Assembly: GCA_020721225.1 (NCBI GenBank) | Contig: DYNE01000007.1 | Span: 1-64,000, forward strand | Origin: Pelodictyon luteolum | GTDB lineage: Bacteria > Bacteroidota > Chlorobiia > Chlorobiales > Chlorobiaceae | Direction of reading: 5' to 3' | Length of the DNA stretch: 64,000 nt | Notes under the pieces: generated by a model | The model's input: only the letters and a program-made list of their open reading frames with translations | Told to the model about the DNA's origin: nothing | Database searches by the model: none | Translations under genes and position numbers: made by a program | In this document: positions 11,875-44,809 of the stretch, in pieces | Layout: each line of letters begins with the position of its first letter | Position numbering within the stretch: position 1 is the first letter of the stretch

Positions 11875-11970
11875 ATGAGTGAATGCGTTATCACCAGAAA
11901 ATCTATTTCTGAAAATGGATTATCCGGTGAGCGAAGAGAACTCATCTTTGTTGACCCGTGGCAAACCTGA
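11875..11970 (+). CDS. Possible 31-codon leader ORF upstream of the signalling operon
   Basis: ATG 11875 is preceded by GAGG 10 bases upstream and opens a 31-codon frame that ends at TGA 11968-11970. The product, beginning 'MSECVITRKSISENGLSG', has no signal peptide and no family I know. It ends 56 bases before the preferred start of the hotdog-methyltransferase gene and overlaps that gene's alternative GTG start. It could be a leader peptide, a small protein or chance. Confidence 0.25.
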   Translation: MSECVITRKSISENGLSGERRELIFVDPWQT

Positions 11971-12026
11971 AACGACACTCGGGAAAATCTTCGCAGGATC
12001 CAACATGTAGTAAAGTATTGAAAGCA

Positions 12027-13421
12027 ATGAGTCTTAAATTCAGTCCTTCTTTTCTTTTGAATTCAATCGATGCATGGGAAGAGGATCGCAAGGAGCGTTT
12101 CAACCTTGAAGCTCTTACGCAATCCTTTCACGAGTCGGTTCCGGCTCTTGGTTTTATTGACTGGAAAATTACTGATGTTGAGCGTGGCTATGCTGAAACC
12201 GTTCTCCCGCTGATTCCGAATTCATCCAATCAGTATATCGCTCATCAAGGTCCTCTGATGTTGCTTGCTGCAGAATATACCGGGGGTCTTGCCCTGACCA
12301 CTCTGTTTCATCGGGTGCCGATTATTGGTTTCTGGCCGTCGGTTGATCAAAATGCCGGCTATATGTGGGGTGCGAAGGCTTCGATCAAGTGGCTTTCACC
12401 CAGTTGTCATAACCTGACGTGCACGGCCCGAATTGAAAAAGAACGATGGGAAGGACTTGCAAAGCGTTTTGCCAACAGCAATAAGCTTGTGGTGACCATT
12501 CCCGTAATGATGTTCAATGGCGATAAACTTGTTGCTGTCTCGGATTTTACCTACTGGGCTCAGGATATCAACGGTTTGAAACGAAATGCCTTTGATATTG
12601 AAAAGATCGATCTGCTCTACGAACACAAAACAAAAACAACGGCAAAGTTGATTGTCGGATTGCGCGCGTTGGAACAGGAAAAACCGTTAGACCAGAGGCG
12701 ATTTGACGATCCTTACGCTTTCATGCTTGCCGGAAAGCACGGTATTACTCTGGCAAGGCGGTTCAGTGTCGCTACTCCGCAACTGCAGAATATGATAGCG
12801 GCTCGAACACAGCATCTTGACGAGTGCGTAAAACAGTTTTCTTCCGGGAAGATTAAATTCAATGTGGTCAATATCGGGGCTGGTTATGATAGCCGTTTCT
12901 GGCGGTTGAATCTTTCAAATGCCGTGATATACGATCTCGATTTGCCGATTATGCTGCATGAACGAAAAAAGATTTTTGATTACAGCAGAAATAAGTCGAT
13001 CCATAACGTTGAAATAGACCTTGAAACCCAGTCGATCGATCAGGTATTGTTGGAAAGATCAGATTTTGATTCCGGTTTGCCGACTTTTTTTATTTGGGAA
13101 GGAGGTTCGATGTATTTTCTTGAGAAAAATATAGATACTATTTTCAGTTCGATAAGAAAGATCGTGAATGAGGATTCCTGTCTCTGGCTTGATTATGTTT
13201 CGAAAGATCTTGTCGAGATTTGTACAGGTATCCCTGAAGCTGAAGGGTTTATTTACAATATCCGAAAAATGGGCGAGCCCTTCATTAATGGTTATAATGA
13301 TATTGGCTTTCTTGCCGATAAGTATGCCCTTGCTATAGAGCAGAATATTCGTTCCGGAGAACTTCTCGATCTCGAAGAGGAAGTTTATAATCATTACAGT
13401 TTCTGTGTGCTGAAAAGCTAA
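12027..13421 (+). CDS. Fusion of a DUF4442-type hotdog domain and a leucine-carboxyl-methyltransferase-like domain
   Basis: The N-terminal 180 residues fit DUF4442/PaaI-like hotdog proteins that bind acyl thioesters: 'LGFIDWKITDVERGYAETVLP' and 'QGPLMLLAAEYTGGLALTTLF'. The C-terminal 260 residues fit the LCM/Ppm1-type AdoMet methyltransferases. They begin with 'RRFDDPYAFMLAGKHG', then the AdoMet loop 'VVNIGAGYDSRFWRL' and the acidic 'YDLDLPIMLHERKKIF'. Coding is open from GTG 11958, but ATG 12027 lies at the start of the conserved region and is preferred. The gene sits 13 bp upstream of the CqsS-like kinase and is probably cotranscribed. A substrate made of an acyl chain that is hydrolysed or bound and methylated is inference. 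Confidence 0.8.
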   Translation: MSLKFSPSFLLNSIDAWEEDRKERFNLEALTQSFHESVPALGFIDWKITDVERGYAETVLPLIPNSSNQYIAHQGPLMLLAAEYTGGLALTTLFHRVPIIGFWPSVDQNAGYMWGAKASIKWLSPSCHNLTCTARIEKERWEGLAKRFANSNKLVVTIPVMMFNGDKLVAVSDFTYWAQDINGLKRNAFDIEKIDLLYEHKTKTTAKLIVGLRALEQEKPLDQRRFDDPYAFMLAGKHGITLARRFSVATPQLQNMIAARTQHLDECVKQFSSGKIKFNVVNIGAGYDSRFWRLNLSNAVIYDLDLPIMLHERKKIFDYSRNKSIHNVEIDLETQSIDQVLLERSDFDSGLPTFFIWEGGSMYFLEKNIDTIFSSIRKIVNEDSCLWLDYVSKDLVEICTGIPEAEGFIYNIRKMGEPFINGYNDIGFLADKYALAIEQNIRSGELLDLEEEVYNHYSFCVLKS

Positions 13422-13434
13422 TATTTTTATTGCC

Positions 13435-15915
13435 ATGCGCCACAGCCATTCCCCCGGACCATCTCTCCTGAAAAGGGGTGCCGATTTTTTTCGGAGAGAT
13501 TATGAGAGTAACGAGCTTACAATCAATTACATCAGATACATCGGATTATGGGGTCACCCGCTGTATTATTTGCTCTGCACCTTTGTATTTCCGCAGCCTT
13601 ACGAGTCTTTTGAGCTGCGTTTTGCCTCGGCGGTTACGTTTATTCCGATTCTTTTTCAGCGATATTTTTCAGAAAGGTTCAGGGCATTTCTGATGCTCTA
13701 TTGGTATCTCTGGTTGACGTTTACTTTTCCTGTTGTTTTTACGTTTCTGATGTTGATGAACAATTTTTCCGGATTATGGCTGGTGGCGGAAACCGTTATG
13801 CTGTTTGTGTTCATCATTTTTATTACCAATTATTTTCTCCTGGCCTTCCTGTTCATTTCAGGTATTTTTATTGCCTATGCCGGATTTGTTCTTCATACCG
13901 GAACCCATCTGATTATTACAACGGAAATCATTGAATACTTCGTGTCAATTCCTGTTGCTATTCTGCTTGGATTACTGGTTAATTCCACCAACAAAAAGGG
14001 CGCGCTGGCACAGGAGAAAAATACGGTACTGCAATCTCTGGCAGGCAGCATCGCTCATGAGATGCGCAACCCTTTAGGCCAGATTCGTCATTGCCTTTAC
14101 AGCATCCAGAATCTTCTGCCGCAGGTTAACCCGGAAGAGTGTGACAAGCCTATCGGAAAAGAGAAACTCGAGAACCTTTATGAGCGGGTGGCGCGTGGTC
14201 AACTGGCGGTAAAACGAGGTGTTCAGGTGATCGACATGGTTCTCAGTGAGGTTCGTGAAATGCCGATCGGGCCGGAAAGTTTTACTTATTTGTCTGCAGA
14301 GCGCATTACTCGCAACGCACTTGATGAATTTGGATACGAATCAGAACAGGATCGGAGACGCGTACATTTTGTTGCGAAAGACGCGTTTATCTTTTACATC
14401 AATGAAACTCTTTTTGTTTTCGTGCTTTTCAATTTGCTGAAAAACGCGCTGTTCTATTTCAAAACCCATCCCGATAGTCAAATCACGGTTCGTCTGGAAA
14501 CGGGTGAGCGCTACAATTATCTTTATTTTCGCGATTCGGGTCCGGGAATATCCGGTGAAGCTCTTCCGAATATTTTCGACAGTTTTTATACCAAAGGCAA
14601 GACTGCCGGTACAGGTCTCGGCCTGGCGTATTGCAAGCGGATCATGACGGCATTTGGGGGTGGCATCAGTTGTGAATCGGTTGAAAGGGAGTATACGGAG
14701 TTCATGCTTTCCTTTCCTGTCATTACAGAACAGGAGATGAATATCTATACCGAACGTGTTATTGCCATGGGATTGGCTGATTTTCAGGGGAAGCGATTGC
14801 TGATAGTAGACGATGAAGCTCTTTACCGCATTATTTTAAAAAAGTATCTTGCCCCACTTGATATGACGATCGACGAGGCGGTTGACGGAGGTGACGCGTT
14901 GCAATTGTTGTCTGTCAAACGGTATGATCTTGTTATCATGGACCTGAACATGCCGGTGATGGGCGGATATGAGGCAGTCGAACGGTTACGGCGCGGAGAG
15001 GCAGGACCGGAATCCTGCCTGGTACCTGTGGTGGCACATAGTTCCGAGTCTGTCATGGTTGCGCGGAGCAAGTCTGAGAATGCAGGGATGCAGGCTTTTA
15101 TTGCCAAGCCCTGCAGCCAGGCGGAATTGATCAGCTCATTGCGTTCCGTTCTCGATACCATTCCCGTAAGAAAGCATCCTGAATCTCCTTTTTCAGGGCG
15201 AAAGGTGTTGCTTGTCGATGATTCCGCCCTGAACCGGGACCTGCTTGCCATGTATCTCAGAGACGCAGGGATCGAGGTGACGGTTTCTGATAATGGTGGT
15301 CAAGCATTGGAGATTTTGAGATCCCAGGATTTCGAGCTGCTGATAACTGATATTCACATGCCGGGAATGGGTGGACTCGAACTGACCCGCACGATTCGAT
15401 CGAGCAGAAACCAGCGCTTGTGCGGTCTGCCAGTCATCGGTCTCAGTGGAGCGATTGAAGAAGAGGCTGCTGCAAAAAATGCAGGAATGAATGAATTTCG
15501 TATTAAAACCGATAGCCCAAATCTTTTGCTCGCCTCCATTGGCAGGCAATTGTCTTTACCTGCCGCAAATCCGCTTACAGAAAAAACAGTGAACAAGCAA
15601 ACGCATTCCACTAAGGTTGCCTCACTGTACGGACTCTCATCATCTGAGAGCGAAGAGCTCTTACAGATTTTTCATGAAGAGTTTCGGGATACTCCGGTAT
15701 GCTTGCGACGGGCTTTGGAAGAGAACGATAACGTGAGCCTTAAAGAGCAGGCGCATAAACTGAAAGGCAGTGCCGCCATTCTTGGTATCATGTCACTCAG
15801 CAAGGCTGCCGAAGAACTTGAAATGCATTGTCGTTCCGGCCGGACTGGCGATCCGGGAGCAATGGTTCAGCGTATCATCGAGGCTCTGGAGGAACTTTCA
15901 GCAAAAAAGACCTGA
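13435..15915 (+). CDS. CqsS-like hybrid sensor histidine kinase with two receiver domains and an HPt domain
   Basis: The first 190 residues form about six membrane helices that closely resemble Vibrio CqsS, the receptor for CAI-1. The shared stretches are 'GHPLYYLLCTFVFPQPYES' and 'FPVVFTFLMLMNNFSGLW'. They are followed by the dimerisation box with H208 ('SIAHEMRNPLGQ') and an ATPase domain with the N box 'NLLKNALF', 'DSGPGIS' and 'GTGLGLAYC'. Receiver 1 carries D503 ('VIMDLNMPVMGG') and receiver 2 carries D639 ('LITDIHMPGMGG'). An HPt domain carries H774 ('QAHKLKGSA'). Receiver 2 lacks the usual Lys-Pro pair (it has 'IKTDS'). CqsS has only one receiver and no HPt, so this protein contains a longer phosphorelay. 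No response regulator gene is adjacent. Confidence 0.92.
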   Translation: MRHSHSPGPSLLKRGADFFRRDYESNELTINYIRYIGLWGHPLYYLLCTFVFPQPYESFELRFASAVTFIPILFQRYFSERFRAFLMLYWYLWLTFTFPVVFTFLMLMNNFSGLWLVAETVMLFVFIIFITNYFLLAFLFISGIFIAYAGFVLHTGTHLIITTEIIEYFVSIPVAILLGLLVNSTNKKGALAQEKNTVLQSLAGSIAHEMRNPLGQIRHCLYSIQNLLPQVNPEECDKPIGKEKLENLYERVARGQLAVKRGVQVIDMVLSEVREMPIGPESFTYLSAERITRNALDEFGYESEQDRRRVHFVAKDAFIFYINETLFVFVLFNLLKNALFYFKTHPDSQITVRLETGERYNYLYFRDSGPGISGEALPNIFDSFYTKGKTAGTGLGLAYCKRIMTAFGGGISCESVEREYTEFMLSFPVITEQEMNIYTERVIAMGLADFQGKRLLIVDDEALYRIILKKYLAPLDMTIDEAVDGGDALQLLSVKRYDLVIMDLNMPVMGGYEAVERLRRGEAGPESCLVPVVAHSSESVMVARSKSENAGMQAFIAKPCSQAELISSLRSVLDTIPVRKHPESPFSGRKVLLVDDSALNRDLLAMYLRDAGIEVTVSDNGGQALEILRSQDFELLITDIHMPGMGGLELTRTIRSSRNQRLCGLPVIGLSGAIEEEAAAKNAGMNEFRIKTDSPNLLLASIGRQLSLPAANPLTEKTVNKQTHSTKVASLYGLSSSESEELLQIFHEEFRDTPVCLRRALEENDNVSLKEQAHKLKGSAAILGIMSLSKAAEELEMHCRSGRTGDPGAMVQRIIEALEELSAKKT

Positions 15916-16254: not shown

Positions 16255-16305
16255 GGCTTTGCCTCTATTTTTCAAATGATTAAGATTTTAATTGCCGGAG
16301 CGATA

Positions 16306-17226
16306 ATGAACAGTAACAGGCGGATAGCGGCGACATGTTATCCATGTATTTTCGAGCAGTTGCATTCGCTTGCAAGGGTTACCGGACTTGATGAGGAGGA
16401 AGGAAAAATGCTGTTCGAACACTCGATGCGTCATCTTCTTGCTACTCATGGCGAAGGCGTCGTAGTGCAGCATATCATCAGGAGCGCCACTGACAGAGCG
16501 ATTGCGCTGTCGGGAAAAGGGGTTGATTACGATCCTTACGGAGCGATAAAAAAACAGTCAAACGACATCGCCCGGCAGTTTGCCGGGGGGTTCCGGAACA
16601 AAATCCGGCACTCTTCCGAACCGTTGCGCGATGCGGTTAAAATTGCTGCGGCGGGCAACATCATCGATTTCGGCGCCAAGCGGCATGGATCGCTCGATAT
16701 TGAAATGGAACTGAGCAGCATCGATGAACGGGCATTCGGGCGCTTCGATTTTGCGGAGTTCTCCGGGCGTTTGAAATTGGCCGGAAAACTGCTTTATATT
16801 TGCGACAATGCCGGAGAGATTGTTTTCGACAGGCTGTTCATCGAGGAGATCAGGCGCAGTAATTCCGACCTGGAGGTTACCTGTGCCTTGAGGGCGTTGC
16901 CGATCATCAACGATGCGGTACTCGCCGATGCGCATGATGCAGGATTGCATGAAGTGGCGGAGGTTGTCTCATCAGGCAGCGTGTATCCCGGAACTCTGCT
17001 TGAAGAAACGTCTGAAGAGTTCAGGCGGTTGTTCGATAACGCCGATGTGATCATTTCGAAAGGACAGGGGAATTTCGAAACGCTGCTCGATGTCGCAGAT
17101 GAACGTCTCTTTTTTATTCTGAGAATCAAGTGTGACCAGATGGCGAAGCTCTCCAGTGTCGCAAAAGGGGAGCTGGTTCTCATGCAGGGAAGAGGGAAGT
17201 TGAACGTGGGATGTGGGATAAACTGA
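16306..17226 (+). CDS. DUF89/ARMT1-like protein, putative metal-dependent phosphatase
   Basis: DUF89 proteins are metal-dependent enzymes. Relatives such as ARMT1 and yeast YMR027W act as damage-control phosphatases on sugar phosphates. Seen here are the N-terminal 'CYPCIFEQLHSLARVTGL', the metal-site 'YICDNAGEIVFDRLFIEEI', and 'VIISKGQGNFETLLD' near the end. The length (306 residues) fits the short prokaryotic AF1104 group. ATG 16306 is chosen because CGGAG lies 7 bases upstream, and the frame is open further up to 16276. A membrane-protein gene follows 10 bp downstream, so an operon is likely. The substrate is unknown. Confidence 0.85.
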   Translation: MNSNRRIAATCYPCIFEQLHSLARVTGLDEEEGKMLFEHSMRHLLATHGEGVVVQHIIRSATDRAIALSGKGVDYDPYGAIKKQSNDIARQFAGGFRNKIRHSSEPLRDAVKIAAAGNIIDFGAKRHGSLDIEMELSSIDERAFGRFDFAEFSGRLKLAGKLLYICDNAGEIVFDRLFIEEIRRSNSDLEVTCALRALPIINDAVLADAHDAGLHEVAEVVSSGSVYPGTLLEETSEEFRRLFDNADVIISKGQGNFETLLDVADERLFFILRIKCDQMAKLSSVAKGELVLMQGRGKLNVGCGIN

Positions 17227-42626: not shown

Positions 42627-43637
42627 ATGACATCATCCGCTATCCATCAGGCAGTTATCGATGCATACAGGGTTCTTGATACCGGCGAGCCGCTGGACCG
42701 TGAAACGGCTTTACGTCTTGCAGCTCTTCCCGGTGATGCCGTGCTTGATCTTGCCTCTCTGGCCCACAAGGTGAGACTTCGTTACGCTGATGAAACCGCA
42801 TCGCTTCACGCATGTTCAATCATGAATGCCAAATCAGGTGAATGCAGCGAAAACTGCCGTTTCTGCGCACAGTCGCGTTACAACAGTGCGGCAATTGATG
42901 TTTACGATCTTGCCGGTGAGGATGCCGTTCTGCGGCAGGCCGAAGAAGCCGTTGATAGCGGCATTCCGCATTTCGGCATTGTAACCAGCGGGTACGGCTA
43001 TCTTAAGATAACCCCGGAGTTTAACCGAATTCTCGGTATGATCGACATGTTGCACCGCGAACTGCCCGGCCTCAACGTCTGCGCCTCGCTCGGCGTACTC
43101 GGCGAAGAGACAGCGGCAGCGCTGGCCGCACACGGGATTGCGCACTACAATATCAATATCCAGGTCGCGCCATCAAGGTACAGCGATCTTATTGCCGATA
43201 CGCACACGGTCGTCGAGCGGATCGCAACCGTGCGGTTGCTTCGCAAACACCGTATTCCGGTTTGCTGCGGAGGTATTCTTGGAGTCGGGGAGAGTATGTT
43301 CGAGCGTCTTGAGATGATCTTCGCGCTCAGCGAACTCGATGTATCGGTTATTCCCCTTAACGTCCTTGTGCCTATCGATGGTACCCCGCTCGAAGGCCAT
43401 CGGACGGCCGATATTGCCGATATTGTCAAGAGCTTCGCAATCTGCCGTCTGGTGCATCCTCGCACGATCATCAAGTTTGCGGCCGGCAGGGAGACTGTCA
43501 TGAAGGATTTTCAGGGGCTGCTTATGCTCTCTGGTGCAAACGGCTTTCTGACCGGAGGCTATCTCACTACCCGCGGGAGGGATATCGATGCAGACCGGGA
43601 GCTTGGCCGTCAGCTCGAAAGTTTCACGGAGGGGTGA
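42627..43637 (+). CDS. bioB: Biotin synthase
   Basis: This radical-AdoMet enzyme inserts sulfur into dethiobiotin, the last step of biotin synthesis. The AdoMet cluster motif is '[11 protein letters not shown]' (CxxxCxxC). Further family stretches are '[13 protein letters not shown]', '[12 protein letters not shown]', '[11 protein letters not shown]' and '[12 protein letters not shown]'. The residues for the second cluster, including the Arg near '[13 protein letters not shown]', are present. The length is 336 residues. It starts 13 bp after birA and overlaps bioF by 4 bp. Confidence 0.96.
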
Positions 43638-44809
43638 GCGTCATGCCGTTTCATGCCTTTATCCGCAACCGTCTCGATGAACTCCGGAGCGAGGATCGTT
43701 ACCGTGTGCTTCCGGATACCGGAAAGCGCAACGGAAAATATATAACGTTGGAGGGAAAGCCTCTTCTGAACCTTTCCTCGAACGATTATCTCGGTCTTGG
43801 TGATGATTCCATTCTTCGAGCAGCCTTTACCGCTGCATTTCTTGAACAGGGCTATCTCATGACCAGTTCATCCTCAAGGTTGCTGACCGGCAACCATCAC
43901 CTGTATGAGCAGCTTGAGCGTGAGCTGGCTCATCTCTACGATCGGGAGGCCGCTCTTGTTTTCAACAGTGGCTATCATGCCAATACCGGTATTCTTCCGG
44001 CCTTGACCAGCCGGCACGACCTGATACTTTCCGATAAGCTCAATCATGCAAGTATCATTGACGGTTCCCGCATTTCCGAGGCGGCATACCGGAGATATCG
44101 TCATAACGATCCTGAGCATCTTGAAGAGCTGCTTGAAGAAGCTGTCGGAAAATACCGTCAGGTATTCATCGTTACCGAATCGGTTTTCAGCATGGATGGC
44201 GACCTTGCGGATTTGTCGAAACTTGCGGCACTGAAAAAAAAATACGGGGCAGTACTGATCGTCGATGAAGCTCATGGCGCGGGGGTGTTCGGCGAACGAG
44301 GGCTCGGTCTTTCCGAGAGCTCAGGGACAGTCGGGGAGATCGATATCATTGTCGGTACTTTCGGCAAGGCCTTCGCTTCAACCGGCGCCTATGCCGTTAT
44401 GAATGAACTTATCCGTGATTATCTCGTCAATACCATGCGCCCGTTTATTTTTACCACGGCGCTGCCCCCCGCAGTACTGGCCTGGAGCCTTTTGACCCTC
44501 CATCGTCAGGCGACAATGCAGGTCGACCGCTCCCGGCTGCTGCAACTTGCCTCGATATTTCGCGGCGCTCTTGTCGAAAAAGGATTGGAGGTTCCGGGAG
44601 AGAGCCACATCGTGCCGGTCATAACGGGAACCAACCAGAGGGCTCTTGGCATTGCAGCAACGCTTCGTGAAGCGGGAGTGCTCGGTATGGCTGTACGTCC
44701 TCCGACCGTACCTGAAAACCGGGCAAGGATTCGTTTTTCGCTCAGGGCATCTCTGGAGTGGGCGGATATTAAACACATTCCGGATCTCATAAGCGGAGTC
44801 CTCTTGTGA
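43634..44809 (+). CDS. bioF: 8-amino-7-oxononanoate synthase
   Basis: This PLP enzyme of the alpha-oxoamine synthase family condenses pimeloyl-ACP or -CoA with alanine. Motifs seen are '[11 protein letters not shown]', '[17 protein letters not shown]', the substrate-site '[12 protein letters not shown]', '[11 protein letters not shown]', and the PLP lysine in '[14 protein letters not shown]'. The length of 391 residues is normal. It overlaps bioB (4 bp) and bioG (4 bp). Its family also contains CqsA, but the operon setting assigns this one to biotin. Confidence 0.95.

Follow-up and report, generated by a model that had tools for sequence, protein, structure and literature searches.

The closest described relatives of the locus reported here are the alpha-hydroxyketone quorum-sensing systems CqsA/CqsS of Vibrio and LqsA/LqsS of Legionella, in which the partner of the hybrid histidine kinase is a PLP-dependent enzyme of the CqsA type. 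CqsS, a characterised member of its family, is encoded beside its own synthase gene (PMC3285556), the positions of the Vibrio CqsS ligand site and their role in head-group recognition have been described (PMC3376566), and CqsS receptors have so far been treated as alpha-hydroxyketone receptors. In green sulfur bacteria, a review places homologues of cqsA and cqsS in Chlorobium (PMC5289986), and the accessible text of a Prosthecochloris study gives CAI-1 signalling by CqsA/CqsS as the sole quorum-sensing route among the systems it considered in this group (PMC10158934). A second precedent, a functional one, is PhcB/PhcS of Ralstonia and Cupriavidus. According to two reports (PMC6989110, PMC8578825), the signal of that system is a 3-hydroxy fatty acid methyl ester that is read by a histidine kinase, and a SAM methyltransferase gene lies beside the kinase gene.

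The two genes described here lie in a 64,000-nucleotide stretch of DNA from Pelodictyon luteolum (hereafter the window) and, as far as their sequences allow us to judge, probably constitute a quorum-sensing-type enzyme-receptor pair that uses a lipid signal other than CAI-1. With the CqsS and LqsS systems the locus shares a homologous sensor and kinase core, the tryptophan W104, an adjacent enzyme gene and the hybrid architecture of the kinase; it differs in that the partner is a hotdog-LCM methyltransferase fusion protein, that S107 and the gatekeeper Phe are replaced, and that a second receiver and an HPt domain are found inside the kinase. The pairing of a SAM methyltransferase gene with a histidine kinase gene is also that of Phc, although in the text available on Phc no hotdog domain is described for PhcB and separate regulators, PhcR and PhcQ, are present. 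The CqsA/CqsS pair of green sulfur bacteria is found in the same genomes as the fusion module, and the accessible text of PMC10158934 contains no description of that module or of the AfsA module presented below. Nothing on the fusion type, on AfsA with CqsS or on related combinations was found in the open-access literature, and partner swapping across the CqsS-type family appears to be undescribed so far.

A hotdog-methyltransferase fusion gene upstream of a CqsS-like kinase gene

The fusion gene, encoding the candidate signal synthase (464 residues), occupies positions 12027-13421 of the forward strand, and the gene for the CqsS-like hybrid histidine kinase, the candidate receptor (826 residues), positions 13435-15915 of the same strand. 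Just as the initial annotation had stated, the two are 13 bp apart (13422-13434), a spacing consistent with co-transcription. The fusion gene probably starts at the ATG at 12027 rather than within 11875-11958, as most fusion orthologues begin or align there. Promoter and terminator scans stayed near the level of shuffled sequence, an Rfam search of the region gave no matches, and no output response regulator is encoded near the pair. Downstream, at 16276-17226, the window carries a gene for an ARMT1-like/DUF89 damage-control phosphatase, which the other loci do not share.

The LCM-type carboxyl methyltransferase domain that had been proposed from inspection of the sequence is borne out by profile searches: the C-terminal part of the fusion scores above the cut-offs of both PF04072 (LCM; 12657-13154, forward strand; 1.6e-24, 87.3 bits against 22.3) and TIGR00027 (2.4e-31, 109.1 bits against 93.55), and its SAM motif NIGxGYDSR (about 12864-12896) is kept in 14/14 aligned fusion copies. 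In sequence, fold and SAM motif this part clearly matches the LCM/TIGR00027 methyltransferases (ML2640c, Rv0731c, LCMT1), from which it differs in its fusion to a hotdog domain and in its pairing with a sensor kinase. A PHROGs search of the fusion matched the methyltransferase part alone, to a family that is uncharacterised. The remaining LCM-type genes of the genus were set aside, being only 24-30% identical and located elsewhere.

The N-terminal domain (approximately residues 14-180; 12066-12566, forward strand) had been assigned to DUF4442. The hotdog fold holds: the AlphaFold model of the fusion, which is of moderate confidence (mean pLDDT 64), displays the order beta-beta-long helix-beta4 in this domain, and a fold search retrieved MadB (8ayv, TM 0.83 by target), PA5026 (1sh8, 0.76) and 1t82. 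The family name is not supported by profile searches, in which the domain remains below the Pfam cut-offs (PF09500 and PF14539: YiiD_C, 18.9 bits against 27; DUF4442, 13.4 bits against 25). The domain thus has its fold in common with the malonyl-ACP decarboxylases MadA/MadB and with DUF4442 hotdog proteins, and differs from them in its sub-threshold sequence and in being joined to a methyltransferase. MadB acts on malonyl-ACP (PMC8666670), and hhalign places its catalytic Asn45 on Ser67 of the fusion or, after a shift of one residue, on Asn68.

In the kinase, a membrane sensor of the CqsS type (13435-14034) is followed by a DHp and ATPase core with the phospho-accepting His208 (14047-14724), two receivers with Asp503 (14800-15141) and Asp639 (15202-15552) and an HPt domain with His774 (15655-15903), all on the forward strand. 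From the core onwards these assignments come from profile matches and conserved residues, in agreement with the two receivers and the HPt domain of the initial annotation; the phosphorelay residues, like the SAM motif of the fusion, are intact. The likeness to CqsS had been confined to residues of about 35-115. It proved real and more extensive, covering the whole sensor and the kinase core: over residues 10-430 the kinase aligns with Vibrio campbellii CqsS, whose gene adjoins a cqsA-like gene, at 30.5% identity (E 6e-41) with W104 kept, and its sensor and core also align with a Cupriavidus CqsS-like kinase that has a cqsA-like gene beside it. By these alignments the sensor belongs to the CqsS-type family in its wider sense. 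Its structure model is all helical, and a fold search of the PDB with this model returned nothing below E 0.001.

Conservation of the pair and trees of sensor and core

The genome of the window was surveyed together with 60 relatives, 61 genomes in all, of which 37 belong to the same genus. Full-length fusions were found in 8 of these 37 (nine copies) and in none of the genomes outside the genus. Each of the nine copies is directly upstream of a kinase orthologue, the eight other same-genus kinases being 60-82% identical to that of the window over the stretch compared, with one of them cut by a contig end. Among 84,980 species scanned, the fusion was also present in further Chlorobiaceae, in two Candidatus Thiosymbion genomes (64-65%) and in one Alphaproteobacteria MAG (55%), while 274 genomes of the gammaproteobacterial class yielded no fusion apart from those of Thiosymbion. 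The kinase gene is directly downstream in 16/16 distinct intact fusion copies with flanking sequence, and the hosts of these copies (Chlorobium-genus genomes, the two Thiosymbion symbionts, which are Gammaproteobacteria, and one alphaproteobacterium) span two phyla. Two copies stand outside this count: L086, at a contig end, and L096, a broken Thiosymbion copy beside an intact one. In that symbiont (Thiosymbion of Catanema; L091/L096), the broken second fusion has one stop and lacks its N-terminus; together with remnants of a kinase gene it lies some 13 kb away from the intact pair. In several species the surrounding genes differ, and the window's flanking genes have none in common with the other loci examined, some of which share flanks with each other; the conserved unit is thus the pair.

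In a tree of the sensors alone, all 15 fusion-partnered sensors, including the alphaproteobacterial one, fall into one clade (100/98), and the partner labels change 8 times over this tree versus 31 in shuffles. In a tree of the cores alone, the kinase core of the alphaproteobacterial locus (L093) groups instead with that of the kinase encoded next door (98/93). AU tests rejected both a core tree in which the fusion-partnered kinases were held together (p 7e-8) and a sensor tree in which the two alphaproteobacterial sensors were joined (p 6e-7). Identities follow the same division: the L093 sensor is 40% identical to that of the window and 28% to that of the neighbouring kinase, whereas its core is 40% identical to that of the window and 53% to the neighbour's. 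The simplest account would be a crossover near the DHp domain in which the sensor was kept with the enzyme. As the L093 sensor lies in the fusion clade and its core with the neighbour's, the sensor tracks the enzyme, and this exchange, seen on one alphaproteobacterial MAG contig and with long branches, would be the strongest indication in our data that the sensor functions together with the enzyme.

Ligand-site residues, cqsA and the candidate signal

Ligand-site positions were transferred from Vibrio CqsS, the mapping being checked by the W104-S107 and W104-H194 spacing and by the Phe of the harveyi group at the C170 position. The W104 equivalent (W115 in the window) is tryptophan in 54/54 aligned sensors. 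The position of S107 (A118 in the window) is serine in 15/15 CqsA-partnered sensors, alanine or cysteine in 15/15 fusion-partnered sensors and tryptophan in 9/9 AfsA-partnered sensors. At position 162, phenylalanine is present in 38/39 of the other sensors and in 0/15 fusion-partnered ones, which have an aliphatic residue instead, and positions 160, 162 and 166, where CqsS has Phe160, Phe162 and Phe166, are non-Phe in all fusion-partnered sensors. Because the changed positions set head-group recognition in CqsS, the ligand of the fusion-partnered sensors likely differs in its head group from CAI-1. The partner groups are also clades, so the changes are consistent with a changed ligand without proving one, and the differences between clades could reflect drift along one ancestral branch. 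Having neither the CAI-1 specificity residues nor a CqsA partner, the sensor does not merit the name of a CAI-1 receptor.

The absence of a nearby cqsA gene, also put forward at the outset, holds for the window and fails for the genome. In the window, a cqsA search returned only a 27% match at 43634-44809, which is the bioF of a bioB-bioF pair (42627-44809); its product, the sole CqsA-like protein found in the window, is not CqsA. The same genome has cqsA on another contig (G000:C11) and is therefore not without CAI-1-type synthesis; since cqsA is present in each of the eight fusion-bearing genomes of the genus, the fusion is no genome-wide replacement for it, and the distribution suggests that it marks a channel added beside CqsA.

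That the locus is a signalling module of its own, with the fusion standing where CqsA would be, has good support in the invariant adjacency across two phyla, the sensor clade that follows the enzyme despite the core exchange, the altered head-group residues and the other candidate synthases, of acyl-thioester type, carried by sister kinases. Within this module, the fusion likely makes the ligand of the kinase, and the prospect that the ligand is the carboxyl methyl ester of an acyl chain appears to us about even. The hotdog domain would take an acyl thioester (of ACP or CoA) and release or reshape the acyl chain, and the LCM domain would use SAM to methylate the resulting carboxylate; it is the fusion of an acyl-thioester-type hotdog to a carboxyl methyltransferase that points to release and methylation of an acyl chain, and PhcB/PhcS may serve as a functional precedent for such methyl-ester chemistry. 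The neutral, lipophilic product would pass the membrane and be read by the CqsS-type membrane sensor, which would shift the hybrid kinase between its kinase and phosphatase activities. Phosphate is predicted to be handed on from H208 to the Asp of a receiver, then to H774 of the HPt domain and finally to a response regulator encoded elsewhere.

The neighbouring position of the two genes, their shared inheritance and the link between sensor and enzyme would fit inactivation of a signal as well as its production. The fusion might modify or remove a compound made elsewhere, masking an acid or degrading a thioester, while the kinase senses the unmodified compound, and the same genomes do contain CqsA and AfsA modules. 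As the sister modules hold an enzyme of biosynthetic type in this place (CqsA, AfsA, KASIII), we regard such a role as unlikely. Ranking behind it, and improbable in our view, is a kinase that senses the state of membrane lipids or another physical state, with the fusion as an effector that methylates or remodels envelope lipids and no signal passing between cells. The sensor does lie within the membrane and both domains of the fusion could act on lipids, but the homology to CqsS, the covariation of residues with partner and the pattern of swapped synthases favour a diffusible ligand. Proteins too are methylated by LCM-family enzymes. The methyltransferase could modify a protein carboxyl end, for example that of the kinase itself, as LCMT1 does on PP2A, and LCMT1 indeed provides the best PDB sequence matches of the methyltransferase part; we consider this very improbable, for the best structural matches of the second half of the model are the bacterial ML2640c and Rv0731c, the hotdog domain joined to it speaks for thioester substrates and the C-termini of the kinases vary across orthologues. 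Least credible of all is an ordinary CAI-1 receptor serving the product of the genome's cqsA beside an unrelated fusion gene, which the presence of cqsA in every fusion-bearing genome of the genus would allow and which is opposed by the 16/16 adjacency, by the loss of S107 and F162 and by the fact that most cqsA copies of the genus adjoin their own S107-type kinase.

Partner enzymes of related kinases

The proposed signal synthase-receptor pair is accompanied in the same Chlorobium-like genomes by two further classes of CqsS-like kinase. Kinases of the first have cqsA adjacent at 13 loci, with four relatives lacking an adjacent cqsA. Those of the second, at 9 loci, are immediately preceded by genes for an AfsA-hotdog protein and an FAD amine-oxidase-type enzyme, and have two related clades that lack a recognised enzyme nearby. 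One such AfsA/FAD-oxidase/kinase row is in the genome of the window (L052, on G000:C67; 4755-9057), and others in the genus are L063, L064, L065, L102, L103, L104, L106 and L108. Their composition suggests a second undescribed module, with a butenolide or related signal.

Beyond the genus, a KASIII-type enzyme is encoded directly upstream of a CqsS-like kinase in Paraburkholderia caribensis (L098, 4900-8541, on plasmid NZ_CP013105.1) and in both Thiosymbion genomes (L159, L160), and is 60% identical between the two groups. In the alphaproteobacterial MAG (L157, 3176-7090), a NAD_binding_4 gene of the acyl-reductase type is directly upstream of such a kinase; the MAG carries CqsA and hotdog-LCM modules as well.

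Whether sensors of the CqsS type serve as a general platform for reading acyl-derived lipid signals, with the synthase (CqsA, AfsA-FAD oxidase, KASIII, acyl reductase or hotdog-methyltransferase fusion) exchanged as a unit with the sensor, is in our estimate evenly poised. If so, the bacterium of the window would have three signalling channels working in parallel, and one of these would use a methyl-ester autoinducer of a new class. Taken with its relatives, the locus points to several as yet undescribed lipid signals for one receptor family, and natural sensor variants with matched enzymes make ligand choice by a membrane helix bundle directly testable. As the pair is also found in sulfur-oxidising symbionts of animals, its signal may act across phyla. 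Lastly, no recognised enzyme gene lies near the CqsS-like kinases of three clades (L111/L114/L119/L121, L053/L066/L105 and L054/L067/L107/L109), which are possible eavesdropping receptors.
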